The notes under the pieces were generated by a model, which saw only the letters and a list, made by a program, of their open reading frames with translations, was not told the origin of the DNA and did no database searches. A program made the translations under genes and the position numbers. From positions 14,832,849 through 14,896,848 of the forward strand of contig OZ014412.1 in the NCBI GenBank assembly GCA_963965975.1: DNA of 64,000 nucleotides, read 5' to 3'. This stretch comes from Xestospongia bergquistia (taxonomy: Eukaryota > Porifera > Demospongiae > Haplosclerida > Petrosiidae). The stretch's first letter is position 1, and every line of letters starts with the position of its first letter. This document shows positions 20,446 to 60,645 of this stretch, piece by piece.

Positions 20446-23400
20446 CTATAGTAAGAGAAAAAAAGATTAAGTGTATGGTTCTGAAAATCAGCGATCTGAC
20501 ATGAATGAATTTTCATTCACAGTTATATGAACAAGGAATGAATAAAGTCTAGACTATCTTATTTAAATGCTCTTACCAAGTTTACTTGTTACTACAGTAG
20601 CGGCATTTTTATCAATCCAGGGAAGTTGCCGTATCTCATTGATATCCTTTGTTGACATGTTGTCTTTACAACAAGTAAGTACCATTTTGTCTTCATTTGG
20701 ACGACACAGATGATCTGTTGAAAGTGGACATACGGAGCAAAGAAAACGTTCTTGAGGCATTGAGAGAAATGGCTTATATTGAAATTTCTTGACTACATCT
20801 TCAATCGCTTCAAAAATGACAGCCTTGATAGTGGAGCACTTTGTAGAAGGGCCAGAATAGTATACCTCCATCCAGCAGATAGCATCGACAAGTAAAACTG
20901 CTCCTCCAGTACCAATACATGCTAAACGAATAGCATTACGATACTGCATTTCAGACTCTGATGGACAATGTAGGTTAAAATGTGGGGGATCGTGTCGTTT
21001 AAGGAGACCCACAACCAAAGCAGGAAAAAGACCTTGAGGAATTGGCTTTGTATCCCACGTGAAAACAAAACAATCAATGTTTTTAATAAATGGAACTCTA
21101 ATATTTTCTAATAGAGAAGTTGTGGGCAAAACACTCGGTAGAAAGAATTTCCCTTTTTCAGGCAATGGTGCAATAACTAAAATATTCTCCATTAACTTCA
21201 AGAAATCATCTGCAGTAAAATCAGGTGAAAAACCATCAGGAAGACGATCAAGTAGCTCTCGTGTAAAAATACCTTCAGCCTTGAGTTGAAGATGTGCATT
21301 TCCAGGAAGAACTATATTCATTTCCTCTAATTGGTTAACAGCATCAGCAAAAGAAATGCTGATTATTTCTGAGAGCTTGTTAAAAAGGGGTTGTGGGTGT
21401 AGAAAAACCACATCAGACAATACGGCTGGAAAGTACAAGAATATGGTTAAATCGTGAAAGTACAGTAACGAAGATTCGATATCTTTGTGATCCATCTCAA
21501 GCGTCAAGCCTATTCTACAGCATTCCCTTTTACTGATGACCATTGACTTGTTTTTTTTCTGAAGATCCTCTAATTCAAGCTTAAACAAGAACCATCGTGC
21601 TGGAATTTCTGCCTCTATGTAAGATTGACTAACAATTGTACGAATCCTCTCAGCAATTTTCATTTCTGTCTCACCTCTGGCTGTTGTGTTGACAGGAAAT
21701 ATTATCTCCTTTTTGGCTTGACGGTAATTCATACACACACCTCTGAATTGACTTAGGGTAGACCACAAACGAACATTTTTTTCCTCCAAAGATTCGCCCA
21801 CGCATTCTGCAATTTTATCAAAAAATGTACCAAGAACGAGCAATGAAGGCTCAGGATGTGAAAACTTGATGTGAATACCGCGCAAGTCAGGCTGATCTAT
21901 GGATGCTAGCGAACGAAAAGAAGACTCGAGTAGTTGTAAATTGGTAATTTCTCGCTCTACAGGGGCTCCAATTTGTTGACCCTTAAAGCTAAAAAAAAAT
22001 TGGGGCTTACCGTCAAGCTTCTCATTTAACTTTTGTGTAAGGATATTAACTGGACTGTAGCCTAATATTGCCGGAGCAATGTCTAAAAAGGCTGCTTGTC
22101 CACCTGAATCTACACAGTAAATCCAATGAGAGTTGAATAGCTCAGGAGATTCCTTTACAGTAGGCATAATCTCAGCAATCTCATTTGCTGTTTGTGAAAC
22201 AGGTGGAGGTGTTGGCTTTGAAGGAGTAACTGAGGTAACTTCATTGAGGTCTGGTGGTGTTTCTTCTCCTGAACCATCATCATCAGATGAACTATTGCTA
22301 TCCTCATGTTGTGTAGTGGATTCAGCAGGAGAAGATGGGACTCCAATTTTAATGGCTTTGGCAATCATATGTTTTACATATGGAGTATTAACTTCTTCCC
22401 AAAATTGACTGGTAAAAGAAGAATCAGTTGACTCACTTCCTGCTATGAGACTTGCAGTCTCTACTCTTCTTACTTCAGGAGTAGTGGCTACAGAGGTGCT
22501 GTGATGATGTGTAGGTGGTGGGAGATTTAATAACAATTTCAGGATAGACGACTTTCCTGTCCCAGGTGCTCCAGACAGTGATAACTTTGAGTATTTACAT
22601 CGAATTCGACCTTCTTTCAGTGCCTTATGAAGTAAACCAGTATAATCTATAAAACAAAAGAGAAAATATTTATGTAACTAACTAGTGCTGTGATACTGTA
22701 TAACATTCTATGTTAGCCTTCAAACTGGTACAGTAATACATAATAAATGATACATGATAACATTATACTCTATGAGTCCTTGTGGTTAATAAATTAAAAC
22801 AATGGAATGTCAATTATCTTCAAAGATGATAATAATCTTTTATGTGCAACAGTTAAAACAATGATTTCTTAACTTTCAATAATTTAGAAAAGTATCAATA
22901 GTTAATAATTTGTTTGATCTGTATTAATACAGTATATTTTTATATGACTACTTTCAATATAATCTTTACATACATATGTTATTAGTGAAGTCAACACAAG
23001 TATTTGAAAATAGCACTGAGTGTTCCTTGTAATGATTTATTATGAGTTTGTACAGATTAAATAGACATGACACTGTTATTACTAGCAGTATACATCATGT
23101 TACTAGGTTACATTATATCATTGTGTTGATATTTATTGTATGTACATTCTAATGTAAAGAATATAACAATGAAGTACATTACAATAGAAATATACACTGA
23201 CCATGTAGTGACTTGTCAATTAACTGTAGTATTTTGTCTTTATTGACATCATCAAATTCTACCCTGTCAGCAGGTGTTTGGCCCTTGTTATTCTTTTATG
23301 TTGGCATCTGCACCACATAACAATAATACTTCAACACATTCTACTTTCCCTTCACTGCAGGCATCATGTAAGGGGCTATCTCCATCCTATGTGATAAAAG

Positions 23401-33245: not shown

Positions 33246-33659
33246 AGACCATGTTTAGTTTATGTTGTCCTGTTTGCAACCCCTAAGTAAAAGGACGTTG
33301 AGCTTTTGAATTAGAGTAGAAAATCAATGGACGGACAAATCTATTTTCGGACACTTTTTCTTCTAAAAATTTGAAGACAGCTTATTGCTTCCGGGCTCTT
33401 GGTTATGCTCAATGAATACACTTTCCTTGCACAGTTTCCTAACTAAACTCCGCGTTGTGAATGAGCTCCGTTTTTGGTGCTTTTACGGACACGTGGTATG
33501 TTTTGGCGGACAACACAACCTCAAGTCTTGACGTTAGCTAGGAGTTTTCTGTCAGTTTCTGAGTCTTTCTCTTTCTATCAACTAAATCTACCTCAAGTTA
33601 AACCTTAGCCAGGACTCTCTTGTATTAACTATTGTGGAAAGAATCAAACATGGTAATTT

Positions 33660-34626
33660 GTGAATCGTGATAATGTATAGATGTCCATGGCTTGAGCTAT
33701 GTGTTAGCAATACCTTAGTCAACCCTGGCCATTTTTGTGATTAGTAAATATGTCTGTAATAACAGAGTCAGTTCACTTTTTTAATAATAAGAGTGTTGTA
33801 CTAAGGCTTATAGCTGCTTGACTTTATGACTAACTTTGCTGTAAGTAGGTAAACATGTGATAGATATTTGAATTATAATAATCTGAGTGATATAAATTTT
33901 TAAATGATAATCAATTAACAATATGACAATATTATTGTTTTTAATACCTTTGAGGAAATAAGATAAAGTCATCGCATAAACTAAAATATGTCATAGACCA
34001 TCTATTATACTATAGGTATGGTGTTATAGTCACAAGAATAGGAGGAAGGGTAGGCAGATAACATGTTAAAGTCACTAGTCATTATTTTGATAGAGAAATG
34101 AGTTCTAATGAGTTGCTTATTCAAAATTCATGATATGATCAAAGGCTCTAAATAATTGCAGTATATAGTTATATCACATGTAGTCATTGGTGCAATGTAT
34201 AGTCTTTGTTATGTAGTAGAGAAGAGATGTATACCTTCAAGCATACTAGTAGACATATCTGCCTTACTTATTTGTTTTCATCTGGTCTTATTGAATCTTC
34301 AGAATGCAGTAGTCCACTACAATGAGCTAGAGTCTTTCTATCTTTTATACATAACTAGGAGTCTCTATACAAAGCTATGACAATTAGTATAAGATTGTGA
34401 AAAACCTTTGTACAAATGACTTATTGCAAACCATAAAGTTTATGTGCTTTAAGTGGGTGCTGAGACAATTAATTGTTTGAAAACATGCAAGTCCTTTTTA
34501 AGTGCCCCTGACATGAGTCTATTTTTCTTTGTTTATATATGATTTATTATGTTATAGTTACATCTTTAATAGCCTAGGGTATCCTCTGGAGGAAAAAAGC
34601 CAAGGGATAGGCACTACAATCAGTAG
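33660..34626. other. Presumed 5' untranslated/intron region of the pogo gene
   Basis: No exon is certain. At 33651 an ATG is followed directly by GTAATT, which could be the end of a first exon, and candidate AG acceptors occur shortly before 34657. A 74-codon ORF at 34156-34380 has no recognisable features. Confidence 0.3.
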
Positions 34627-36435
34627 AGTGAGACCCAGTTATGTATAGCAGCAAAGGACGTGGCTAAAGGACGATTTACTCTTAGAAAAGCTGCTGAAAT
34701 GTATAATGTGCCAAAGTCAACATTATGGGATCGAGTGTCTGGTAATGTCTCTTTTGGTGCTCACAGTGGACCCCCTCGATACTTAAATGACATTGAAGAA
34801 GAAGAACTAGTAACATTTTTGGTAGGTTCAGCTAAAATTGGCTTCGCTCGGACAAAGGAACAAGTTCTTTGTATTGTTAGAGCAGCACTAGCAAAGAAAC
34901 GTCAATGTGAAGTTGAAGATGTCAATGTCACTACTGGTTGGTGGGGCTCATTTGTGAAGCAGCATCCAAAACTACGATTAAGATATGGATCCAAATTAGC
35001 ATATCGTAGAGCTATTGCAGCTAACCCAGATGTCATAAATCGATATTTTGACTTGCTTGAAGAAACATTGAAGTCTAATAATTTGCTTGAATCACCAATG
35101 CTGATTTTTAACTGTGATGAGAGCGGGTTCCCATTGCAACATAAACCTGGCAAAATAATTGGAGTACAAGGTCAGAGAGATATTTCCTGTATTACTAGTG
35201 GTGATAAAGCCCAAATTACTGTTTTGTCAGCATGCAGTGCTTCTGTTTACCTTTTACCTCTGATGATAATTTTTGATCAAAAAAAGACAAGCCCAATTTC
35301 ACAACAGGAGAAATCCCAGGTACTGCATATGGGATGTCTATGGATAGATTCCAAATTGTTTCAGGAATGGTTTACTAATCACTTCTTACTTCACATCCCT
35401 CCACACCGAGCCATCTTGTTACTCCTGGATGGACATTCTTCACATTACCAACCTCAATTGATCAGGACAGCTGCTGCAAATCAGATCATCTTATTTTGCT
35501 TGCCACCTCATACAACTCATTTGTGTCAACCACTGGACAGGTCATGTTTTAGCCCCTTAAAAAAGTCATACAATAATGAGTGTCATCTCTACATGTCCTG
35601 TAATCCTGGGAAAGCCGTTAATAGATTTAATTTCACCGAAATTTTTAGTCGAGCCTGGACAAAGGCAATGACACCAGCCAATATTGTTGCTGGGTTTAGA
35701 TCCACTGGTATATACTCCCTCTACAGGTATGCAGTATTACGTTACTTGCAACTTGAGGAGGATGGGAAAATAGATATGATAGCCTCCAAGATGGGACTGT
35801 TTCTTCCACTGTATTGCCCAGCTAAGTCTCATCCTCGTGCCTGTATTACTTCCGATAGTGAAAGCATTGATTATTATGAGGAACACACTTGTAGTGAAGA
35901 CAGTACCTGTGGTTACTATGGTAACTTTTCTGAAGATGAAGATTACATTACAAAAGTTCAGCCATCTACTCTTCATGATTTTCTTACTTTACCTCAGCTA
36001 CCAAGTAATGAGAAAAAAACAAACCACAGTGCTCGTGTTTTAATAAGTTCTGAAAATCTTCAGTTGATAAGAGAAAAAGAAACGAAAAAGCAGATGGACT
36101 AAAAGCTAAAGATCTTAGAAAGTAACAGCGAGAAAGGAAGGCAATGGAACAAGAACAGAAAAAGAAGGAAGTAGAGGAGAGAAAACTTAAAAGAGCAGTT
36201 GAAAAGCCGAGAAAGAGAGACAAAAGAAAGAAAAAAAAACAAAAGTGAACAGAGTACATCAAAATTTGATTTTACAGAAGAAGAGCACAGTCGGTTTTCT
36301 AGGAGGTATAAGAATGGTTATGATCTACCTGACATCAGATATGAAAAATGGAAAAAAATATTCCATCCTGAAGAATTATCTTTCACGCTACAGCATGTAA
36401 ATCCAGTGGTGGAGACATCAGTCTCAGTGATGTAG
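34627..36435 (+). pseudogene. pogo-type transposase: HTH_psq + DDE_1, frameshifted C-terminus
   Basis: An open frame from about 34627 to 36102 begins in a helix-turn-helix of the psq/CENP-B kind (GRFTLRKAAEMYNVPKSTLW). A second DNA-binding region follows, then the DDE nuclease with all three acidic positions visible: IFNCDESGF, LLLLDGHSSHY and HLCQPLDRS. It would cut and paste the element at TA sites. The start codon is unclear: there is no ATG before the HTH in this exon, so an upstream exon is expected. After the stop at 36100-36102 the expected Lys/Glu-rich coiled segment continues in other frames. It then returns to a family-typical stretch (FTEEEHSRFSRRYKNGYDLP, HPEE) up to a donor site near 36450. 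At least two frame changes and one stop indicate that this copy is dead or needs RNA-level repair. Confidence 0.9.
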
Positions 36436-36500
36436 ATGAGAATAGTAAGTGATACAGCCTGAGGTTAATTATACTTTGAATTTATGGCTTGCTATTTTAG

Positions 36501-38480
36501 AAAGTGCACTAGAACAGTCACCCAAAAGTTCTCAATTTTCCAATATGTGTAATGTATATATATATATATTGAAGTATTTTTGAGTTAATTATCCTTGTTA
36601 CAGGGAGTAAGAGATGTACCAGAAATACTTGCAAGAGAAGTGAAGAAGAGATAGGACTCAGTGAATATGACAAGAATGAACTCAGTGATAATGGTATGTG
36701 ATATTATATTATAATTAACCCTTGAATAGTGGCTTGCCATTTTAAAAACTACACTAGAACAGTCAAAGAGATTACCTAAAAATTCTCAAATTTCCAGTAT
36801 GTGTGATGTGTATATATTGAAGTATTTTTGAGTTAATTATCATAGCTACAGGGAGGAAGAGATGTACCAGAAATACTAGCAAGAGAAGTGAAGAAGAGAT
36901 AGGACTCAGTGAATATGATAAGAATGGACTAAGTGATAATGGCATGTGATATTATATTATAATTAACCCTTGATTAGTGGGTTGCCATTTTAGAAACCAC
37001 ACTAGAGCAGTCAAAGACATTACCTAAAAATTCTCAAATTTCCAGTATGTGTAATGTATATATATTGAAGTATTTTTGAGTTAATTATCCTTGTTACAGG
37101 GAGGAAAAGATGTACCAGAAATACTAGCAAGAGAAGTGAAGAAGAGATAGGACTCAGTGAATATGACGAGATTGGACTCAGTGATAATGGTATGATATTA
37201 TATTATAATTAACCCTTGAATAGTGGCTTGCCATTTTAGAAACTACACTAGAGCAGTCAAAGACATTACCTAAAAATTCTCAAATTTCCAGTATGTGTAA
37301 TGTATATATATTGAAGTATTTTTGAATTAATTATCATAGCTACAGGGAGGAAGAGATGTACCAGAAATACTAGCAAGAGAAGTGAAGAAGAGATAGGACT
37401 CAGTGAATATGATAAGAATGGACTAAGTGATAATGGCATGTGATATTATATTATAATTAACCCTTGATTAGTGGGTTGCCATTTTAGAAACCACACTAGA
37501 GCAGTCAAAGACATTACCTAAAAATTCTCAAATTTCCAGTATGTGTAATGTATATATATTGAAGTATTTTTGAGTTAATTATCCTTGTTACAGGGAGGAA
37601 AAGATGTACCAGAAGTACTAGCAAGAGAAGTGAAGAAGAGATAGGACTCAGTGAATATGACGAGATTGGACTCAGTGATAATGGTATGATATTATATTAT
37701 AATTAACCCTTGAATAGTGGCTTGCCATTTTAGAAACTACACTAGAGCAGTCAAAGACATTACCTAAAAATTCTCAAATTTCCAGTATGTGTAATGTATA
37801 TATATTGAAGTATTTTTGAATTAATTATCATAGCTACAGGGAGGAAGAGATGTACCAGAAATACTAGCAAGAGAAGTGAAGAGATAGGACTCAGTGAATA
37901 TGACAAGAATGAACTCAGTGATAATGGTATGTGATATTATATTATTATAATTAACCCTTGAATAGTGGCTTGCCATTTTAGAAACTACGCTAGAGCAGTC
38001 AAAGACATTACCTAAAAATTCTCAATTTTCCAGTATGTGTGATGTATATATATTGAAGTATTTTAAAGTTAATTATCATAGCTACAGGGAGGAAGAGATG
38101 TACCAGAAATACTAGCAAGAGAAGTGAAGAAGAGATAGGACTCAGTGAATATGATAAGAATGGACTAAGTGATAATGGCATGTGATATTATATTATAATT
38201 AACCCTTGATTAGTGGGTTGCCATTTTAGAAACCACACTAGAGCAGTCAAAGACACTACCTAAAAATTCTCAAATTTCCAATATGTGTAATGTATATATA
38301 TATATATATAAGTATTTTTGAGTTAATTATACTTGTTACAGGGAGGAAAAGATGTACCAGAAATACTAGCAAGAGAAGTGAAGAGATAGGACTCAGTGAA
38401 TATGACAAGAATGAACTCAGTGATAATGGTATGTGATATTATATTATAATTAACCCTTGAATAGTGGCTTGCCATTTCAG
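36501..38480 (+). repeat. Tandem exon array: eight 246-254-bp units with symmetric 90-bp exons
   Basis: Each unit holds an exon A between an acag acceptor and a gt/gc donor: 36604-36693, 36852-36941, 37100-37189, 37346-37435, 37594-37683, 37840-37926, 38088-38177 and 38342-38428. All are 90 bp (two 87 bp), phase 1 at both ends, encoding near-identical peptides such as RKRCTRNTSKRSEEEIGLSE followed by YDKNGLSDN. Between them lies a likely exon B (about 51 bp, also phase 1), after gccattttag, reading TTLEQSKTLPKNSQIS. Donors are GC in units 2, 4 and 7 and GT elsewhere. Units 2-3 and 4-5 are almost identical, showing a dimeric higher-order repeat. The array sits inside the pogo gene, before its PHD exon. 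Confidence 0.9.
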
Positions 38481-38670
38481 AAACTACACTAGAACAGTCA
38501 AAGTATAACCTGACAACCAAACTATCAGCATGTTCTAATAATTTATGTTTTCACACTAAAGCGACTAATTGGGTGAATGTGAAAAATGTTTCCAGTGGTA
38601 CCACATGATATGTGATGGGATCAAGAAAGAAAAATCACTAAATTTTGTTTGTTTTATGTGTGAACTATAA
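38481..38670 (+). pseudogene. Last exon of the pogo gene: PHD-type zinc finger, one base missing
   Basis: After the acceptor gccatttcag the exon starts like exon B of the array (TTLEQSK), then reads CSNNLCFHTKATNWV. From there a one-base frame change leads to ECEKCFQWYHMICDGI, FVCFMCEL and TAA at 38668-38670. The Cys/His/Trp spacing (C..C, W.H..C, F.C..C) fits a PHD finger, a domain that reads histone H3 tails and is known at the C-terminus of some pogo-like transposases in invertebrates. The frame change lies near 38580. In the phase set by the array the frame hits TGA about 25 codons early. Confidence 0.75.
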
Positions 38671-39841
38671 TAATTAACTACTAGACTTTTTTGTAGTAAA
38701 AATATTTCTTCATGCACAGTGAGTTTGTATAATAATTAATAAACAGTATTTGTGATTTTCAAATTTAAGTTAATAAATATCAAGAACTTATCACCTACTT
38801 TAGAAAAGCACTTCTCCTTAAATGTCCGTTTATTCGTCCATGAGTTCATGTTTTCAAAGAGATGTATATTCAGAACTGTATGTAGAAATTTCTCCAAATT
38901 TTGACGGTTAATTCTTTACGTATTACATAGTGTTCAAAAGCAGAGAAAACGTTCAAGCTATAATAATTATTGTTACCAAGATATGGTCATCGTTCGAATC
39001 TACATAAGAATGTCCGTATTATCATTATCTCAAGTGTACATACAGGATATATGCTTGTAAATTGTGCAAAGAGATTTCTTTTTCACTATATTTTTTGCAA
39101 TAACTATATGACGGATTGGGCACTCGAAGCTGGTGTCGAAAGTCTGCTTCGAACGATCCGTTTGTTTAAAAACAGTAAAAACACCGATTGAGTGTCCGAT
39201 CATTGAGCCACGCCTCTAAATATAACAGACTGAAAAACTTATTAGTCATTTATTTCACTCAAATTAACTAATAACCAGTACAAAATTAAGTAGGAAAATG
39301 TTAAATTGCTTAAGAGCAATGTTTTAATTGATTGTCACAGTTACTATCTAGATTATAATGCATGGGAATAGGTCCAATGTGTATCTACAGAAGAAAAAGA
39401 AAATAATTATATTATTTGTTAATCAGTGCTCTTAATAATGTTTGGTGTCATGAACATTGTGACATGAAAAAAATATTTCATACTGAATTTGGTCATTGAG
39501 ATGTATGAATAAAGACAGTATGTACAATGTACTGTACTGACAATTAGATTATCATTCTTTATAGTTTTTATATTATGAACTTTCATTTATGTATTATGCA
39601 TTTTTAATTATCATTATTTCATTTTCATACTAAATTTTCTAAATATACCTTTACATATGTAGTTGTAGCAGCTATTATGAAGTACTGCTTGGAGGATCAT
39701 CTAAAAATATAATAATTGTAATAATATGATAGAAGTTATGATAACTATAGTATATACTACAACAAGCTATTTGTTTTAATTGATTAGCTTAATTTAGCAT
39801 CTATATTATACTATGATGTATGTATTACTGCTGTAAATATT
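38671..39841. other. Right flank of the pogo element and intergenic DNA
   Basis: To about 39205 the DNA belongs to the element's 3' region with TGTCCG motifs. The rest to 39841 is A+T-rich, downstream of paralogue 2, with no gene recognised. Confidence 0.45.
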
Positions 39842-40591: not shown

Positions 40592-43500
40592 ATTAACTTA
40601 CCTAAAGTAATTGGAACACGAGTCATCATTTCAGAATTTGAATTTGAATAAGATCCTTGATTATCTACATTAAGAAATATAAGTCATTAATAATTATTTT
40701 CAAAATAATATTGTCCCAGTTGTCTATATTGTTATCTTGATAGAATAGATATAATTTAAAAACACTGTTCATACCATGTGTATCCAGAATAGGAGGGACT
40801 TGAACTAATTGGATTTGACAAGCTGATGTCTGATCTATAATTAAAATAACAAATAAGATATATATGTTGAAAACAGCATACCTTTGTATCCAGTAAACCA
40901 ATGTCCCTCTTTCTCTGTATCAAGTTGTATTGGTTCTAATTGTCTCATTATTGTGCATTGAACATATTTAGAGTAAATTAACTTTGCTGGATGTGGTTGT
41001 ATATTTAAATCTGTCATGTGATCAGGATGTCTACACAACAGACTAACTGTAAACTTGAGAGCGGAAGGATCATAGGACAGGGGATCAGCACAGGACGATA
41101 CAGCTTCATCTAGTGTATCGCGTATGATACTACAATTACTGATAGGAATTCCAGAAAAGTAGACTTCCATCCAAGAAAGGGAATCAACCAGCAAAAGTAA
41201 TCCCTCTAAATCATCAGAAACTAATTTCACTCCATAGCGTAGCTGATTTGATAATTTTGATGATGAACTGTATAACTTAAAGGTTGGATAAGTCTTCCTA
41301 TTTAGTAAAGCTACTACAGTAGCAGGGAACACACCCTATAACATAACAATAATTGTAGAGTTATGACTAACATGTATGACATCACTTACCTGAGGTACAA
41401 CTTTGTTTTCAAATTGAAGCACCATTGGATGACATGTTTTCTTAAAATGCTTCTTTTCTTTCCCTGTAATATGCGTACTAGGAAGAACTGCTGGTATAAA
41501 ATACTGCTGAGCTGATGAAGTAGATGTTGCCTCTGTTAGATTCCTTAAAGGACTGATAATGCAAAGATGTGCCATTAACTCAAGGAAGTTATCCTTGGTG
41601 AACAAACCCTCAACAAATTGGACATCCAGGAGAGCATCGAGCAATTTACTTTCAAATATGCCTTTGTTTCGAAGCTGTTGATTCCAGCCTGGGTAGGGAG
41701 CACAATCTTTGAAAATTTTACACTTCACTGGGTCAACAAATGAAGCTCTAATGATGCTAGTGACCAAGTTAACTAGGTACTGTGGATTAGTGAATATAAC
41801 GTTATCGATTACGTCAGGAAAGTAGAGAACTAAAGACAAGGAGTTGAGGTATTCAATACAGAGTGTTGTATCTGAAGCTTTCATTTTTAGCTCTTGCCCT
41901 ATCTCCACACAGCTGTTAAGAGATACCATACCATGATCCACCTTCTCTGCTACTTCTTTCATACGTAATTCAAAGACATACCATCGAATTGGTATTTCTA
42001 TTTCAGCAGCAATATTTTCATAACTTGTAATACGCGAGCGGATATCTTCGGATATTTGCTTTCTATTCCTTTTGCATGTATTGTCAACAGGAAAAATTAA
42101 TTCATCCTCTGATTCATTATAAAATATGAAGTGATCGCGAAATTCATGCAAAGCATGCAGCAGCTGAGAATTTTTTTCATGCAATGGCTCTAATTCCTTG
42201 AACAGAGTAGTGATTCCATATGTGCGATCATAATTTGTACCAACAATACAGAAGAGAGGCTTAAAATCAATTTTGTCGAGACCTTTGGCAACTGTGTGCT
42301 TGGCTGATGCTATAGAACGGACAAAGTATTCTATTAGCTGAAGATTGGTCATCTGAAGCAAACTAGGCTGATGTACAATTTGACCATTGACAGAGTATAG
42401 AAACTTAGGCTTATCACTGAGAAAATCATTCAATTTTGTGACAATAACATTGAGGCAATTTCCATGAAGAAAAGCCCGTGATACATCAGCAAATTGAGGC
42501 TGACCTCCGCTATCAAGGACATGTATCCATGTTGATTCGTGCAGCTCTTTTGACCTTTTTCCTTTTGCCAAAACATCAAGTATTTGGTCAGAGTAATAAG
42601 GAGCATCTGAATCAATAATATAATTGGGATCTAAATTAGTGGCACCAGAGGAAATTTTGTGGGTCAGAGGCTCAAGAGAAGTAATATCTTGTTCATCGGT
42701 ACATTGGTCTTCCATAAGTGATGTGGGTACATTGCCACATTTTTCAATACTAGAAGTGGTACTAGGAGTAGACTCTTTATCAATTTCTTCAGATTCAAAA
42801 AATTTAGGAAATACTTCCATTACTCTCTTCAACAATTCTATCCCCTCCATTCTCTCCCAAATACTTCCATGCTTCTCTCCAACTATACGCTCAATTGCAC
42901 GGATAGGTCTACTGGCAATAGCTGTGCTGTTGTGATGCTTTGGAGCTGGCCAATTGAAAAGCAAATGTAGAAAAGATGTTTTCCCTACACCTGGAGGACC
43001 CATTAGCACCAACTTTATAATTTCTACAATAACAGACCCTTCTCTTAAAGCTTGCACAAATGATTTAGCTGAATCTGTATAAGAGAAATATAGATCAAGA
43101 ATAAATAATGAAAATGAAGTAATGTCTTTAATACAAAACTAATTTGATGAAATTATCTTTTCATTAAACAGATTACATCATCTTATGCAACGTGTAATTA
43201 GTATAAATGTGCTATTATAATAGCACATTTATACTGATTAAATATTTCACAACAATGTGACTATTACATAAAAGAATGGATATTGATTATTTAAGAAGAC
43301 ATGCAAACAATAAAATTAATAAAATTATTAATTTTATTAGGAAAAAAATATTATTTGGCAATACTATTATGAATCCACAACAATTTTATGATAACAGAAT
43401 TGAAGCAAATATAGATAGCTTAAACAATGTTCTTTTCTATACACAATGATAACACTAAAGTCATATTTGCTGTCAAAGATATCTTTGACAATGAAGTGGT

Positions 43501-48105: not shown

Positions 48106-51100
48106 CTAAGATGAGAAATACATAGTCGGTTCGAAACGATCCACCGGACGGTGAGGGCGTGTTGAACGACGTATGACTGGAGGTGGGGCAGGGGATGGAG
48201 CTGGAGGTAGAGCTTTAGGCATTAAAGGAAAATCCTCAAAATCGTCGCTGAGAGAATCGGGAGGACGATCAATTGAGCAATAACGAGGACGTAATTGATC
48301 AACATGTCGACGTAGAATTGAACCGTCTTGTTTCTTTACATGATATGACAAAGGACCAGTAATTGCAATAATAGTTCCTGGGGTCCATTTATCAGTGCCT
48401 GAGTAGTTCCTTGCAAAAACATGATCATCAACATTGAAATATCTTTGTTTCTTTCTAGCTTGTGTGTCCTGCAATTTATCATTTTTAGTAGCAACTTTCT
48501 TATGCACATCAGGATGTAGTAAATCGAGTAAAGTACGGGGTTTGCGATTAAATAGGAGTTCAGCAGGAGAAAGTCCTGTCGTAGAGTGAGGTGTAGTACG
48601 ATAAGTTAGTAGAAATTGTGAAAGGTTTAAATCGATCGATCCCTTGAGCTTTTTCATTGCCAATTTGAACGTTTGAATAGCTCGTTCTGCTAAACCATTC
48701 GTGCGAGGATGGTAAGGTGATGAAGTAGTATGTTTAATACCATTACGTGACATGAATGATTGGAATTCGTGACTAATGAAGGATGCACCATTGTCGGATA
48801 CTAAATGATCTGGTAAACCATGAGTAGCGAAAATTTGTCTCAGTTTAGCAATTGTAACATCTGTGGAAGTAGAGTTCACTTTGAGAACTTCGAGCCATTT
48901 TGAATAGGCATCGATTAGTACTAGAAACATATGACCTTTGAATGGACCTGCATGATCTATGTGTACTCTTTGCCAAGCACGGGTAGGGTATTCCCAAGGG
49001 TGAATTGGAGCTTGTGGTGGATCAGGTCGATGTAATTGACATGTAGAACATTTTTTGACAGTTTCTTGAATATCTTTATCAATACCTGGCCACCAGACAT
49101 AGGAACATGCAAGGGCTTTCATCTTATTAATACCAGGGTGAGTGTCATGTAGGAGCTGTAGAACATATTGTCTACCTTCAGAGGGAATGACAACTCTCGA
49201 TCCCCAGAGAATGCATCCGTCAATCACACTGAGTTCAGAGTGACGTTGCATGTACGGGCGAATAGTAGGATCAGTCTCTGAATCGGATAATGTCGAAGCT
49301 GTTTGAATTGAATGTCGAATACGTGAAAGTAGTGGATCTTTGTCTATCCAAGTCTTGATGTGATTAGCCTGTATAACTGATTCAGACAAATGGTTAAGCA
49401 ATAATATAATATCACCTGGGATGGGTACATATGGTAGTGTTACCGGTAGGGGTAATCTACTTAAAGCATCTGCATTGGCCAATTGAGTACCTGGTTTGTG
49501 TTTAATAGTGTAGGAATATGCTGCAAGTGTAAGTGCCCATCTCTGAATTCGGGATGATGCGAGAATTGGAATTTGACGTGATTCATCCAGTAGGTATTGT
49601 AGTGGCTTATGATCAGAGTAAAGAGTGAAATGTAGTCCATAGAGATAATGATGTAACTTTCGCACAGCAAATACAATAGCGAGAGCTTCTTTCTCTAGCT
49701 GTGAATACTTCTTTTCAGCTAGGTTTAAAGTGCGAGAAATAAAAGTAATGGGTTTCTCGGTTCCGTCAGGCATTTGGTGACTTAGGACTGCGCCTAGACC
49801 GTAAGGTGATGCGTCACATGACAGTAGTAATGGTTTGTTACGATCGTAGTGTACTAATAAGGATGAAGACTGAAGGAGTGATTTAGCTTCCTTAAATGCA
49901 GTGTCTTGTTCTTCTGACCATGTCCAAGGCGTGTTTTTGTGTAACAGTTTATGTAACGGAGCTAAAGTAGTAGAGAGGTTTGGGAGAAACTTGTGATAGT
50001 AGTTTAAGAGTCCCAAGAATGATTTCAGCTCAGTAGCGTTTGAGGGAGCTGGGGCTTGACTAATGGCTTTTATTTTAGAAGTGGCTGGATGTAGGCCTTG
50101 GGCGTCGATAACATGACCCAAATATTCCACGGATGATGCTCTGAAAGTGCACTTGGATTTCTTAAGGGTGAGTCCGGCTGATTCTAATCTGGTTAGGACT
50201 GAGTCTAGATTGTGTAAATGATCTTCTTCTGTAGTACCTGATACCAGAATGTCGTCGATATAAACACATACGTTTGGAAGACCACTTAGAAGTGATTCCA
50301 TTGTTCTTTGGAAAATGGATGGAGCTGATGCGATCCCAAAAGGGAGACGTTCGTATTGGAAAAGACCCTTGTGTGTACTGATGGTTGTATAAGGTTTAGA
50401 AGCATCATCTAGAGGTAACTGGAGGTATGCATGACTAAGGTCCAGTTTAGAGAAGACAGTACCACCTGATAGAGCAGAGAATAGGTCTTCTACACGAGGT
50501 AGTGGATAAGTGTCCAATATGAGAGCTCGATTGATAGTGACTTTGTAATCACCACAAATTCTGATGGAGCCATCTGCTTTGACTACTGGGACGATGGGAG
50601 CTGCCCATGCTGAGTATGTTACCGGAGTAATGACCTTTAAAGCTTGTAAACGTTGCAATTCTGCTTCGACTTTATCTCTGAGAGCGTAAGGTACTGGACG
50701 TGCTTTGAAGTATCGAGGTTGTGATTGCGGCTCAATTAGTATAGAGGCGGTTGTTTCTTCTAGTAACCCTAGTTCTTCACGAAATAAAATGGTGTGTTTG
50801 TTGAGCACTTTGTCGAGTTCAGAGGTAATAGGAGCATGGAGATGATGAATTTCAGACCAGTTGAATTTAATGCGCTCCAGCCAGTTGCGACCTAAAAGAC
50901 TAGGACCAGTGCCCTGTACCACTAATAAGGGTAGAGTGAAACATTGAGAGTTATACTGGACTTGTACATTGAGGGATCCTAAAACTTTGAGCTTTTCACC
51001 GGTGTATGTAACTAAATTAACATTAGAGGGAGTGAGGGGGCCTAGTACTAGGGACAGTTCATTATAAGTGTCTTCACTTACAATTGATAAGGATGCTCCT

Positions 51101-52068
51101 GTGTCAACTTCCATTTTTAGTTCAGACTTGTTGACAATGACAGTGACTGTGATTGGGTTGACCTTCCCAGGTAATGTAAACAGAGGGTAGGCTTCTGTGG
51201 TTGGAGAGGGAGTCCTGGGAGGAGTTGAGGTTTGTGAACCAGACAAAGGGGAATCCTCTAAGGCATGAGCATGGTGTCGTGGTTTACTCTGTCCATTGTT
51301 TGAGGATGTTGCTTTCTGATTAGTATGCCCATGGCTTTTGCCACTGCTTCTACACACTTTCGCTATGTGACCTTTCTTTCCACATGCACGACATATAGCA
51401 TCTAAGAATTTACATTGAGGGGCTAGGTGTTGTCCTCCACAACGATGACATGTTGGGGGTTTAGTATGTTTCCTGACCAAATGAACCGGTTCCTGTAGTG
51501 ATGATGATGATGGTCGGTTGTGAGGTCTTGACTGAATATCGTTGATGTCTCGTGCTGCTATTTCCATAGCTTGCGCTGTTTCGAATGCGGTTTGGAAAGT
51601 AAGAGAGTTCTCTTGTAGTAATCGTCTCTGGATTCTAGAATCCCTGATGCCACACACCAGACGATCCCGAAGCATCTCTTCGAGTAGTGTGCCGCTGGTA
51701 GGTGCTGCAAACTTGCAATGTTCACCAATAGACTTGAGTTCAGCAACGTATGAAGCTACTGACTCTCCTGGGTTTTGGTTGCGTGAATGAAACTTGTATC
51801 GTTGGACGGTAACCGATGGAGCAGGACTGAAGTAGTTTTGAAGAACAGTACATAAGGTGTCGTACGATTTAGTAGCAAGCGTATCTGGCTGAACAAGACT
51901 CTTTACGGTTTGGAATGTCGCTGAACCACATACTGTAAGTAGGACTGCTCGCTTCTGCTCAGCTGTCGTAATATCGTTTGCCGTAAAGTAGAATTCTAGA
52001 CGTTCCTTGTAAGTCGACCATGGTTCTTGACTCGCGTTGAAAGGAGACATTTTACCATGAGTGGCCAT
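48106..52068 (-). CDS. Ty3/Gypsy Gag-Pol polyprotein, single ORF of 1320 residues
   Basis: I place the start at ATG 52068-52066 (MATHGKMSPFN). The frame is open ten codons further, but that part is the primer-binding site and begins with TTG. Domains in order: Gag (about 1-190, with WSTYKERLEFYF); two zinc knuckles near 210-245 (CHRCGGQHLAPQC, CRACGKKGHIAKVC); an aspartic protease near 320 (VDTGAS, LLGRNWL); reverse transcriptase about 430-640 (FSKLDLSHAY, active site YIDD); RNase H from about 730 (LSCDASPYGLGAVL); integrase from about 950 (HHCC finger, then HIDHAGP and SDNGASF). Gag and Pol share one frame, with no stop or shift between them. It makes the particle, copies the RNA to DNA and integrates it. 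It resembles Mag-type Gypsy clades; the clade is not proven. Confidence 0.96.
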   Translation of the reverse strand: MATHGKMSPFNASQEPWSTYKERLEFYFTANDITTAEQKRAVLLTVCGSATFQTVKSLVQPDTLATKSYDTLCTVLQNYFSPAPSVTVQRYKFHSRNQNPGESVASYVAELKSIGEHCKFAAPTSGTLLEEMLRDRLVCGIRDSRIQRRLLQENSLTFQTAFETAQAMEIAARDINDIQSRPHNRPSSSSLQEPVHLVRKHTKPPTCHRCGGQHLAPQCKFLDAICRACGKKGHIAKVCRSSGKSHGHTNQKATSSNNGQSKPRHHAHALEDSPLSGSQTSTPPRTPSPTTEAYPLFTLPGKVNPITVTVIVNKSELKMEVDTGASLSIVSEDTYNELSLVLGPLTPSNVNLVTYTGEKLKVLGSLNVQVQYNSQCFTLPLLVVQGTGPSLLGRNWLERIKFNWSEIHHLHAPITSELDKVLNKHTILFREELGLLEETTASILIEPQSQPRYFKARPVPYALRDKVEAELQRLQALKVITPVTYSAWAAPIVPVVKADGSIRICGDYKVTINRALILDTYPLPRVEDLFSALSGGTVFSKLDLSHAYLQLPLDDASKPYTTISTHKGLFQYERLPFGIASAPSIFQRTMESLLSGLPNVCVYIDDILVSGTTEEDHLHNLDSVLTRLESAGLTLKKSKCTFRASSVEYLGHVIDAQGLHPATSKIKAISQAPAPSNATELKSFLGLLNYYHKFLPNLSTTLAPLHKLLHKNTPWTWSEEQDTAFKEAKSLLQSSSLLVHYDRNKPLLLSCDASPYGLGAVLSHQMPDGTEKPITFISRTLNLAEKKYSQLEKEALAIVFAVRKLHHYLYGLHFTLYSDHKPLQYLLDESRQIPILASSRIQRWALTLAAYSYTIKHKPGTQLANADALSRLPLPVTLPYVPIPGDIILLLNHLSESVIQANHIKTWIDKDPLLSRIRHSIQTASTLSDSETDPTIRPYMQRHSELSVIDGCILWGSRVVIPSEGRQYVLQLLHDTHPGINKMKALACSYVWWPGIDKDIQETVKKCSTCQLHRPDPPQAPIHPWEYPTRAWQRVHIDHAGPFKGHMFLVLIDAYSKWLEVLKVNSTSTDVTIAKLRQIFATHGLPDHLVSDNGASFISHEFQSFMSRNGIKHTTSSPYHPRTNGLAERAIQTFKLAMKKLKGSIDLNLSQFLLTYRTTPHSTTGLSPAELLFNRKPRTLLDLLHPDVHKKVATKNDKLQDTQARKKQRYFNVDDHVFARNYSGTDKWTPGTIIAITGPLSYHVKKQDGSILRRHVDQLRPRYCSIDRPPDSLSDDFEDFPLMPKALPPAPSPAPPPVIRRSTRPHRPVDRFEPTMYFSS

Positions 52069-52085
52069 GCTGCGTTTTCCGTTGA

Positions 52086-52099
52086 CCCTCGTCGCCAAG
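52086..52099 (-). promoter_or_regulatory. Primer-binding site of the young Gypsy element
   Basis: CTTGGCGACGAGGG directly follows the 5' LTR on the minus strand. The dead Gypsy at 56538 has nearly the same sequence (TTTGGCGACGAGAGG) after its LTR, supporting the call. The priming tRNA is not identified. Confidence 0.6.
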
Positions 52100-52373
52100 T
52101 GTTGTGTCCGTAGCCCAGCTTAGAATAGAAAGTGGAATAGTACAGCAAAGCCGAGCAGAGTCTCGAGTAGTGTGGATAGTATGAAAAAGGGAATCTGATC
52201 TAATCTAAAAACATACATATTATATAGTACAGAAACAGGAAATGAATAAGAACAGGAAATAATAATTAAGTGCATACACACATATAATAACCATAATGAT
52301 AATAATAGTAATAACAATACATACCATCTAATAAGTGTTGTACATGTACATAATGTAAAGTATAGTTACCACA
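52100..52373 (-). repeat. 5' LTR of the young Gypsy element
   Basis: Identical by eye to 47822-48095. It should hold the promoter for the minus-strand transcript; no individual elements can be assigned with certainty. Confidence 0.95.
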
Positions 52374-56730: not shown

Positions 56731-59700
56731 ATGGCAATGCTTATCAGTGGACTATTGGAACCGTTTGACCCATCAAAATATATACAATGTTTCAAACTAT
56801 TGGTGAAGGCCAATGACAACCCAGAGGAGAGGAAGAAGTCAGTCTTTCTCACAGCCATTGGCTATGACTCGTACGAAGTTCTGGCAAACATTTTTGAGAA
56901 ACCGGAGCAAGACACTCTCGAGACACTCGAAGCTGAACTAGAGAAGCATTTCAACTCCAAGTCTTCGGTTATAGCAAAGCAGTACAAATTTGGTTGTCGA
57001 CACCAGAAAGAGTCAGAAAGTATATCAGATTTTGTTGTGGACTTATGTAAGTTGGCAGCACGCTGTAACTTTAAGTAGGCATCATTAGATGAAACTCTTC
57101 GTGACAAATTCGTGTGTGGTCTACAGCACGAATATATCAGAAGTCGTCTACTTACAGAGAAAGATAATCTTACCTTCGATCGATCAGTCGACATAGCTAC
57201 AGGATTAGAAGGTGCCAAGAAGCATGCTCACTTAATGCAGCAAGAAACTAAGAAAGAAGAAGTCCATCGCACTACAAGACGACACAGTACATTCAACCCA
57301 AGGTCGTCCACCATTGTATGTTTTCGTTGTGGAGGTCTGCATGTGGTGTGATCAAAGAAAAATGCCACAATTGCGGCAAGACTGGCCACATCTCTAATGT
57401 GTGTCAGAGCCCTACCACAATGTCTCAGAAGTCTAAAGGAAGACCAGCAAAGGGCCTGGACTCTGTAAACATGGAGGAGTCATCACCTCTGGAAAAACTC
57501 ACTCCAGAAGAATCTAATAATTTATTTATGATTTATTCTTTTTCCTCTAGGTCTGATCCAATCAAGCTAGCTGTGGAAGTAAACGGTCACAAGTTAGACA
57601 TGGAGTTGGACACAGGTGCTTCAGTCACCGTCATTAGTGAAGACACCTTCAATTCAGGGCTGTCCTCCTCAGTTCAGCTCCGACCTAGTAATGCATCTCT
57701 CACTTCGTATTCAGGGCACTTGTTAGAAGTGCTAGGAAGTGCAAACGACAAGGATAAATACCAGACACAAACAGTCACACTTCCAATTTTTGTAATCAAG
57801 GGCAAAGGCGTGAGTTTGTTCGGTCGTAACTGGTTGCAGAGGAACAAACTGGACTGGCAGATTATCAAAAGCTTTCGTATCAACTCACCATTGGATGAAG
57901 TCATTGAGAAACATTCTTGTCTTTTCAGATCCGAGGTAGGGAAGTTGAAGGGTATAGAAGCCAAAATCTGTGTCCCCAGCAAAGCTCAACCACGTTATTT
58001 TAAACCTCACCCAGTCCCCTACCCGTTACATGACAAGGTAGATCAAGAACTAGAACGTCTACTCAAAGCTGGAGTTATCTCACCAGTTCAATTTTCTGAT
58101 TGGGCTATCCCAATCATACCAGTTGTCAAGTCAGATAGGAGTGTACGTATTTGTGGAGATTATAAGGTGACAGTCAATGCAGTCTCCAAACTAGACTAGT
58201 ATCCTCTTCCCCAAGTGGAAGATCTATTAGCAGCCCTTTCTGGAGGAAAGGTATTCTCTAAACTATACCTTTCTCATGCTTATCAACAAATTGTACTAGA
58301 AGAGGATTCCAAAAAGTTTACTATCATTAACACTCAGAAGGGTTCATTTCAGTTCGAACGACTTCCTTTTGGTATCTCTTCTGTCCCTGCCATTTTTCAA
58401 CGAACAATTGAAAGTTTGTTGCAAGGGTTACCAGCGGTGGTTACATGTATTAATAACGTTTTAGTAACCGGAAAAAGCCAACAGGAGCACCTTGAGAACC
58501 TGACAAGAGTACTGAATTGTTTAGAAGAGGCTGAAGTAACATTGAAGAGACACAAATGTGCATTCGCTGCACCGTCAGTTGAATACCTAGGTCACGTTAT
58601 CGATCAAGAGGGTTTGCATCCATCAGAGGAGAAAGTCAGAGCAATCATACAAGCCCCATGTCCTCGAAATGTGACAGAATTAAAGTCATTTTTAGGTTTG
58701 CTCAATTATTACTCTAAATTCTTGCCTCACTTATCTACTGTTTTATCTCCACTGTATCATTTACTTAGGAAAGATGGAAACTGGTCCAGTAAGAAGTTGA
58801 AAGAAGATGCATTTAATAAAGCCAATCAGTTGCTTCAATCATCCACACTCCTCATGCATTATGATTGTCAGAAGGAGATCATACTTTCGTGTGATGCTTC
58901 ACAGTATGGTTTAGGAGCAGTCTTAGCTCATAAGATGGATGATGGATCAGAGAACCCAATTGCATTCATTTCTAGAACTCTCTCACCAGCTGAGAAGAAG
59001 TACTCACAATTAGAAAAAGAAGGCCTAGCAATTATTTTCGCTGTGAAGAAACTACACCAATACTTAACAGGAAGAAAGTTCAAAATATATTCTGACAACA
59101 AAACCACTTAAATATTTATTCAGTGAAACCCGTCCGATACAAGTGATGGTTGTATCAAGGATTCAACGTTGGTCACTACTCCTCAGTTCTTATGAATTTT
59201 GAGATTGAATATTGACCAGGATACAAAGTAGCAACTGCTGATGCTCTCAGTAGACTCCCTTTACCAGAGACCACACCCGAGTCAAGTAAAGATGGATCGG
59301 TAGAACTACTCATTCATCAACTCTCAGAAAGTAATTGTCACTGCTAATCAAATAAAGAATTGGACAGAAAAGGATCCAATCTTATCTCGAGTTCATCGTT
59401 TTGTATTACACAAATGGCCAAACATTGTTGACAATGAAGATCTCAAGCCATACTTTAACCGTCGAGATGAACTCAGCATCGTCAAAGGGTGTGTCTTGTG
59501 GGGATCACAAGTAATCATACCTCCACCTGGTCAGTCACTGATGTTGAATCAACTACATGACACTCATCTTGGAGTCAGTCAAATGAAGAGTCTTAGTCGT
59601 TCATATGTCTGGTGGCCAGGTATAGACAGTGATATTGTGAAGAGAGTGAGAGGATGTAATATGTGTGAAATGAATAGACCTTCTCCTAGTAGAGCTTCTC

Positions 59701-60645
59701 TCCACCAATGGGAGTATCCCTCTAGACCTTGGGCGCAGATAAACATTGACCATGCTGGTCCCGTAATGGGCAAAATGTTTTTAGTGGTCATAGACGCTTA
59801 TTACAAATGGATATATGTTGAAATAGTGAACTCTACTTCTGCTGTGAGCACCATTATTAAACTTCGTTCATTATTTGCTACACACGGCATACCAGTACAG
59901 TTGGTGTCAGATAACTGATCAGGTTTTCGAAGCGAGGTATTCAAGCAATTCACAACTCAGAATGGTATTAAACACATATTCACATCACCTTACCATCCCT
60001 CCTCCAATGGATCTGCTGAAAGGGCAGTTCAAACTATCAAGAGTACAGTTGTTAAAATGGATGGTCCAATTGATGTACATTTATCTAGATTTTTACTTCA
60101 GTATAGGGTAACATCCCAGACTACTACTGGACTTTCCCTGTCTCAACTCCTAATGGGGAGGAAGATAAGAACATGTTTAGATGCACTACATCCTGATATG
60201 TCAGAAGATGTCGAGAAGAAACAGGAGAAACTCATCTAGCAAGGAACCTTGAAAGTTTAAACTGGATGATCTGTTGTTTGCAAAAAATTTTCATGGATCT
60301 ATGTGGATACCAGTGAAGGTAACTAAAATAACTGGACCTTTATCGTATGAAGTTACAACTGAAAGTGGCATGACTTTACGACGTCATGTTGACCATCTTC
60401 GAAGATTTTCAGAAGAGTCACAAACTACATTATCAACTCAAGAGGATTGGTCAATAATAGATACCACACGTCAAGAAAGACCTCAACCTATTCAGGTGGA
60501 AGTTTCAGAAGCTCAAGAAGATCGTGTGGAAACAACAGAGCCTACTCAATCAACGCCTAAAAATCCAACACGAGTATTGTGTTCACCAGTTAGAAGATCA
60601 AGTCGAAAACGAAAACCGCCTGAAACATTTGCTCCACTCATTTGA
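56731..60645 (+). pseudogene. Gypsy gag-pol with destroyed catalytic residues
   Basis: Gag starts at ATG 56731 and is interrupted by TAG at 57076. A CCHC knuckle (CHNCGKTGHISNVC) and a protease (LDTGASVTVISED, LFGRNWLQ) follow after a frame change near 57350. Reverse transcriptase is split by TAG at 58197. Its motif A has Tyr (KLYLSHAY, 58266) where Asp is needed, and the YxDD box is CINN (58446-58457). RNase H ([14 protein letters not shown]) breaks near 59111. The integrase frame (59496-59918) ends at TGA within the DN(G) box. The tail ORF 60274-60645 is open. Order and motifs match the young element, so both belong to related Gypsy clades. No function can remain in cis. Confidence 0.93.

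Follow-up and report, generated by a model that had tools for sequence, protein, structure and literature searches.

Arrays of predicted phase-symmetric mini-exons between the transposase and a PHD-like finger in pogo elements of a sponge genome

The window element and its exon array

The window, i.e., the whole stretch of 64,000 nucleotides of Xestospongia bergquistia DNA that was analyzed, harbors an entire pogo-superfamily element (Table 1). Both element ends are common to relatives with different flanks, as seen by BLAST. The dinucleotide TA is present at the 3′ end in 26/26 copies of this family, here called P1, and at the 5′ end in all 21 copies that include that end. The TIR is imperfect, and the test of TA and TIR applies to P1 only. 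DDE_1 (PF03184) scores 77.9 to 100.6 bits against a cut-off of 22 in four proteins (from the window and from the loci L030, L034, and L035). HTH_psq lies above its cut-off in all four of them, and HTH_Tnp_Tc5 additionally in L035. The DD35D motif is found in six of the nine sequences scanned (window, L030, L034, L035, L038, and L039), with no match in L029, L043, and L044, the last two of which are partial sequences. The combination of HTH_psq and DDE_1 with DD35D spacing places the transposase in the pogo superfamily. The window additionally contains retrotransposon remains (48109–52119, 57252–59915, and 3–1883), among them two polyprotein frames of the Gypsy type, one open and one fragmented, and a reverse-transcriptase frame. 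Two frames with matches to COR-A, and weak ones to Roc, flank the element on the minus strand (20566–22677 and 41339–43138), and only the former exceeds the curated cut-off.

Eight units of 246 to 254 bp are arranged in tandem in positions 36501 to 38519, each constructed from an exon A of 90 or 87 nt and an exon B of 51 nt (ETTLEQSKTLPKNSQIS). Both exons fit phase 1 at either end. Tandem Repeats Finder places the array at 36553–38503 with a period of 248, 7.9 copies, and 92% matches, and detects an additional higher-order period of 494 bp. Together with the eight exon A starts, which are spaced 246 to 254 bp apart, this result confirms the eight near-identical units described in an earlier note on this DNA. 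Phase 1 on both exon sides, as proposed there, holds as well: all eight exon A copies (lengths in order in Table 1) are open in phase 1, and each is preceded by an ..ACAG acceptor and followed by a GT (five copies) or GC (three copies) donor. The second symmetric exon of about 51 bp that had been suspected turns out to be exon B, which is complemented by a 42-nt first copy, B0. A chance repeat is ruled out by the Tandem Repeats Finder result and by 115 kb of flanking DNA (the rest of the window and the flanks of 11 copies), in which no array with a period of at least 80 and at least three copies is present, except for one 143-bp satellite.

The transposase frame of the window copy is ended by a stop codon at 36100–36102 and its PHD exon is frameshifted, which characterizes the copy as a pseudogene. 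Splice-site losses in the array concern one acceptor (B1) and two donors (B0 and B7, with AT for GT). In the other P1 copies, the last exon B extends 39 nt to its donor; in the window copy it is fused with the PHD exon. The intron ahead of the PHD exon, which is present in 25/25 other P1 copies, is missing at 38519, where the junction has the sequence predicted for the spliced form minus AAA and stays in frame. Judged from the sequence, the intron may have been lost via an RNA intermediate or deleted by chance. As the window copy is broken, the significance of its array rests on its relatives.

Table 1. Features of the pogo element, with positions in the window
Feature	Position	Strand	Remarks
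Pogo-superfamily element, entire (5.9 kb)	33312..39218	+	Flanked by TA; BLAST ends and TA flanks common to copies
5′ TIR, imperfect	33314..33338	+	About 16–17 of 24 positions match the 3′ TIR (hand count)
Transposase frame, 491 codons	34627..36099	+	HTH_psq and DDE_1 (DD35D); premature stop here
Exon B0, 42 nt	36501..36542	+	Phase 1-1; donor AT
Exon A1, 90 nt	36604..36693	+	
Exon B1, 51 nt	36746..36796	+	AG acceptor lost (AA)
Exon A2, 90 nt	36852..36941	+	GC donor
Exon B2, 51 nt	36994..37044	+	
Exon A3, 90 nt	37100..37189	+	
Exon B3, 51 nt	37240..37290	+	
Exon A4, 90 nt	37346..37435	+	GC donor
Exon B4, 51 nt	37488..37538	+	
Exon A5, 90 nt	37594..37683	+	
Exon B5, 51 nt	37734..37784	+	
Exon A6, 87 nt	37840..37926	+	
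Exon B6, 51 nt	37982..38032	+	
Exon A7, 90 nt	38088..38177	+	GC donor
Exon B7, 51 nt	38230..38280	+	Donor AT
Exon A8, 87 nt	38342..38428	+	
Last exon B and PHD-finger exon, fused	38481..38669	+	Frameshifted; without intron
3′ TIR	39192..39216	-	Compared with the 5′ TIR

Copies of family P1

The genome searched comprises 146 Mb in 21 contigs, and all families come from this one genome. P1 is represented by 26 copies (the window and 25 others) that correspond to 17 distinct insertions, as ten copies (L019–L028) share one flank and are counted as one insertion. All 26 copies follow the order B0-(A-B)n, with n copies of exon A and n+1 copies of exon B. One insertion has n = 1, four have n = 2, nine have n = 4, one has n = 5, and the window has n = 8; in the satellite-borne insertion, n is 2 or 3 depending on the locus. 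An exon array with a variable number of units between transposase and PHD finger, as claimed by the earlier note, is thus found in 26/26 P1 copies (n = 1 to 8), with no copy among the 26 lacking it.

In the 17 insertions, for which the two-unit locus L020 represents the satellite-borne group and L027 is left out, exon A takes on lengths of 87, 90, or 99 nt and exon B of 51 nt. B0 measures 42 nt in 15 insertions and 41 nt in two (the satellite-borne copy and L032), and the shorter form disrupts the frame. Within the units, intron lengths of 52 nt and of 55 or 57 nt predominate. Donors are GT or GC in 117/120 cases and acceptors AG in 118/120, one of the misses being a parsing error. The third exon A carries a stop in 8/8 three-unit satellite-borne loci; an additional stop in L027, where the exons are misparsed, is disregarded. 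In L029 and L030, the transposase frame is open to a phase-1 donor (phase read by hand), and the array and the PHD exon are open too.

A broken P1 copy with an identical flank recurs mid-contig on seven contigs (C4, C5, C6, C7, C10, C13, and C15). The ten loci L019–L028 of this recurrent copy lie on C4, C5, C6, C7, C13, and C15, and the gaps are mostly 109 to 224 kb (range 16–541). L020 sits within the 143-bp satellite, and a satellite probe from this locus gave 4819 candidate matches, of which 40 were scored, on at least 11 contigs. The arrangement looks like a centromere satellite in which a pogo copy is embedded as part of a giant higher-order repeat.

The frame used by the P1 exons is open, and the two alternative forward frames are closed in 59 to 60 of 60 exon A and in 43 to 60 of 60 exon B sequences. 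Between insertions, the exons diverge half as much as the introns (p 0.031 and 0.025 versus 0.063 and 0.061). In exon B, 7/11 distinct changes are synonymous versus 27.5% expected (p = 0.013); in exon A, synonymous changes amount to 5/26 versus 22.5% expected, which is neutral. The sole stop among the changes in the 17 insertions is a glutamine-to-stop change in one exon B of L014. The synonymous counts show that exon B of P1 is under purifying selection and that the other array exons are not, by which purifying selection on all array exons is rejected.

Arrays and PHD-like exons in six further families

Further pogo loci were obtained by a protein search of the genome; those opened are 44 to 48% identical to the window transposase, and two families were added via a DDE_1 search. 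The pairwise identity of the transposases varies from 24% (P1/P6) to 64% (P2/P4), over unequal stretches. Nine loci from six further families (P2–P7) were inspected downstream of the transposase, and 9/9 harbor an array of their own that precedes a PHD-like exon, positioned as in P1. The seven families are the first ones reached, a non-random sample with P1 as its starting point; further pogo families lie outside of it, e.g., C1:23880793, a possible array-free outgroup.

P2 (L034+L036 and L039) uses an exon of 66 nt with an intron of 49 nt, and P3 (L035+L037, L040, and L042) exons of 60 and 84 nt with introns of 42 and 40 nt. In P4 (L038, and L046–L049 as arrays alone), exons of 54 and 60 nt are accompanied by an intron of 49 nt, in P5 (L041) an exon of 54 nt by an intron of 42 nt. 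P6 (L043) has an exon of 60 nt with variants of 66 and 69 nt and an intron of 50 nt, and P7 (L044) an exon of 57 nt with variants of 60 and 48 nt and introns of 46 to 49 nt. The main exon types of all seven families are multiples of 3 and fit phase 1; the 41-nt B0 and, at locus L045, exons of 67 nt deviate from this in length. In-frame stops occur in 0/44 exons of P3, 0/47 of P4, 0/9 of P7, and 1/20 of P2, and in 1/4 of P5 in a separate count. P6 has no usable match in the exon pattern count and contributes two units to the synonymous-change test. The exon models include some matches outside the arrays and odd divergent end exons (63 and 51 nt in P4, 56 nt in P6), and report each 84-nt P3 exon as two matches, so that the pattern counts are more reliable.

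The peptides encoded by the units are unrelated in a shuffling test, P2 versus P4 included: the lowest shuffled fraction among the 28 pairs is 0.028, and none stands out after 28 tests. A single ancestral unit shared by all families finds no support in these comparisons. Judged from the peptides, the units may have a common origin with fast turnover or separate origins. Viral contigs searched with a pattern gave 10 matching stretches, with no relative among them.

Length variants across the families, tallied by hand after removal of divergent end exons and of exons of 67 nt, are in frame in 9/10 exons versus 3/10 introns (Fisher p = 0.02). In P2–P7 without P5, 11/79 distinct exon changes are synonymous versus 23 expected (p = 0.001). 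Many of the changes in P2–P7 convert arginine to cysteine or histidine, the pattern of CpG decay; after removal of the CpG-type arginine changes, the count is 11/63 (p = 0.02). The array exons vary more than the introns in P2–P4, and the reverse is found in P7. Taken together, the frame and splice sites are kept and the residues mostly are not. This would agree with a linker in which composition and length count more than sequence, or with one that is simply tolerated.

With regard to putative zinc ligands, the PHD-like exons share a Cys/Trp pattern, with five invariant columns across six sequences. The Pfam PHD model (PF00628) scores 25.3 bits in P1 against a cut-off of 24, and 18 to 22.6 bits, under the cut-off, in P2–P5 and P7. 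P6 gives no PF00628 match and has a stop in the PHD frame, and its PHD is assigned by the residue pattern only. The P5 sequence matches solved plant ALFIN-like PHD fingers (2.3e-6). Within the PHD exon of P5 (L041, 1438–1557), four in-frame 30-bp repeats (GLDDTEIDNV) are present. The acceptor of the PHD exon, read by hand, is phase 1 in P1, P3, P4, P5, and P6 and not clearly so in P2; in P7 it is phase 1 with a frameshift further on. Phase 1 also applies to the upstream donor in P1–P4 (P3 by splice-site scan, the others by hand). Among the matches listed, a hand count gives at least 12 pairs of DDE_1 with a PHD downstream within 6 kb on the same strand, versus 0.47 expected, and two of these pairs are P1 copies.

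Splicing, unit turnover, and the predicted linker

In P1, a crude splice-site scan places the predicted introns at ranks 1 and 3 among 105 candidates; the ranks are 1 of 25 in P4, a tied 2 of 32 in P6, and 2 of 40 in P7. One P3 intron ranks 3 of 119, and the other P3 intron and the introns of P2 and P5 fall outside the top five. Processed copies with joined exons, which would serve as proof of splicing, are not found: junction patterns of P1, P4, and P2 give 0 matches with up to three mismatches. The splice sites, which match the consensus weakly in P2 and P5 and are broken in part in the window copy, and the lack of purifying selection on most of the array exons would agree with a noncoding intronic minisatellite that resembles exons, around which the transposase is spliced or upstream of which it ends. 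This reading is very unlikely, as all main exon types are open and multiples of 3, the frame is kept by the length variants of exons and not of introns, and exon B shows a synonymous excess. It is further opposed by the window copy, which lacks the last P1 intron and, apart from three missing A, shows there the junction expected after splicing. If the exons are spliced in, isoforms could arise by skipping of symmetric exons, giving many transposase lengths per copy, of which short forms perhaps repress transposition. Symmetric exons can be skipped freely, and some units carry weak or mutated splice sites (GC or AT donors); there is no sequence sign of regulated skipping, however, and we regard such isoforms as improbable.

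Closely similar P4 copies, one truncated copy left out, differ in the span of their listed matches (about 1015, 1124, 1130, 1233, and 1335 bp), which sets them about one to three units apart. Five P4 arrays each count 9 or 10 units by a strict pattern, which misses divergent end units. The unit number varies in broken copies as well, as in the satellite-borne P1 loci with 2 or 3 units. A P2-type array of about 49 units lies in L045 (C1:17597900–17604300), where 12/50 modeled exons are 67 nt long and out of frame; the analysis of this copy covers the array. The out-of-frame exons indicate that the repeat is able to expand even with the frame lost.

The explanation that we consider probable from these comparisons is that the mini-exons are translated as a variable linker, being spliced in, gained and lost like a minisatellite, and filtered by frame. 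The phase-1/phase-1 mini-exons would encode a long, low-complexity, and probably disordered linker that leads from the pogo (DD35D) transposase to the C-terminal PHD finger. The array exons would be spliced into the transcript, and unequal exchange or slippage would add or remove exon-plus-intron units in the fashion of a minisatellite. Any unit number would be tolerated, as each complete unit contributes an integral number of codons, and selection in active lineages would purge frame-breaking units while being largely indifferent to residues. Finally, the PHD finger would reach histone tails while the DDE domain grips the element ends or the target. That the unit number sets the reach of the PHD finger, taken by itself, is a real possibility to which we give somewhat less than even chances.

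Up to this last step, the explanation agrees with one in which the exons are translated and the length of the linker has no function, the array being a neutral minisatellite in a disordered tail that survives because its units are frame-neutral. Its chances likewise lie a little below even. Broken copies change their unit number (the satellite-borne 2 or 3 units and the 49-unit array with 12/50 exons out of frame), the residues are mostly unconserved, and close P4 copies are already about one to three units apart in listed-match span, which all speaks for a neutral repeat. It is less compatible with the constraint on exon B of P1 and with the finding of an array at one place in 7/7 opened families, when 115 kb of flanks harbor none save the satellite. 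The recurrence in 7/7 pogo families opened suggests an enzyme with a freely variable linker length. It is rather unlikely that the lineage repeatedly evolves an expandable array from unrelated sequence and tunes the reach of the PHD finger with it, which would make the array an evolvable length dial that changes between sister copies, with exons perhaps under diversifying selection. The length-variable spacer proposed in the earlier note is upheld in part, by variable phase-symmetric exons in 26/26 copies and in six more families. The eight units of the window have to be withdrawn as evidence for a functioning spacer, since this copy is broken and the unit number changes in broken copies too.

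In host genes, symmetric exons are tandemly duplicated, e.g., in titin-like and other repeat proteins. The arrays resemble these cases in that exons can be added with the frame unchanged, and differ from them by residing in a mobile element with an unrelated unit per family. To our knowledge, variation in the repeat length of proteins has mostly been studied in single host genes. No account of an array of this kind within a transposase came up in searches of open-access PMC articles. The main texts of two articles on the pogo superfamily of IS630-Tc1-mariner contain no text on PHD, introns, or tandem repeats by term search (PMC7386202, PMC7325037); compared with the superfamily as presented in these main texts, the elements described here stand out by an array of exons and a PHD finger at the C-terminus.

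Chromatin-reader-type zinc fingers are known from other transposon or transposon-derived proteins. Ginger1-9_HM contains a PHD-like finger (PMC2836005), as does RAG2 of the RAG transposon lineage (PMC4411706), and the cysteine-rich domain of PiggyMac binds histone H3 (PMC8086355). These proteins belong to other superfamilies, and a repeated-exon array is not seen in the passages that describe them. A variable number of repeats within a DNA transposon is shared with Tetris, in which the repeats measure about 220 bp, and with Galileo (PMC4079207). In contrast to the arrays, the repeats of Tetris and Galileo are located in the TIRs, and the Tetris copies described lack conserved ORFs (PMC4079207). 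Binding of the transposase by tandem repeats is discussed there for Galileo and suggested for Tetris (PMC4079207), which would favor a device at the DNA level, with the repeated units serving as internal sites to which the transposase or a host factor binds. We give this reading hardly any credence, as the Galileo and Tetris repeats are terminal and the units here intragenic, and as the units differ wholly in sequence between families yet keep their coding phase.

If the translated linker is true, annotation of transposons by ORFs overlooks the C-terminal region of these proteins, since that region is spread over many exons of 50 to 90 nt. Sister copies in one genome would provide the same enzyme with different linker lengths, repeated by seven families with unrelated units. 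They would offer a natural test bed for the effect of the length of a disordered linker on a DNA-cutting enzyme that is coupled to a chromatin reader. The same would apply to the origin and turnover of exon arrays, in which the introns give the register and phase symmetry acts as the filter.
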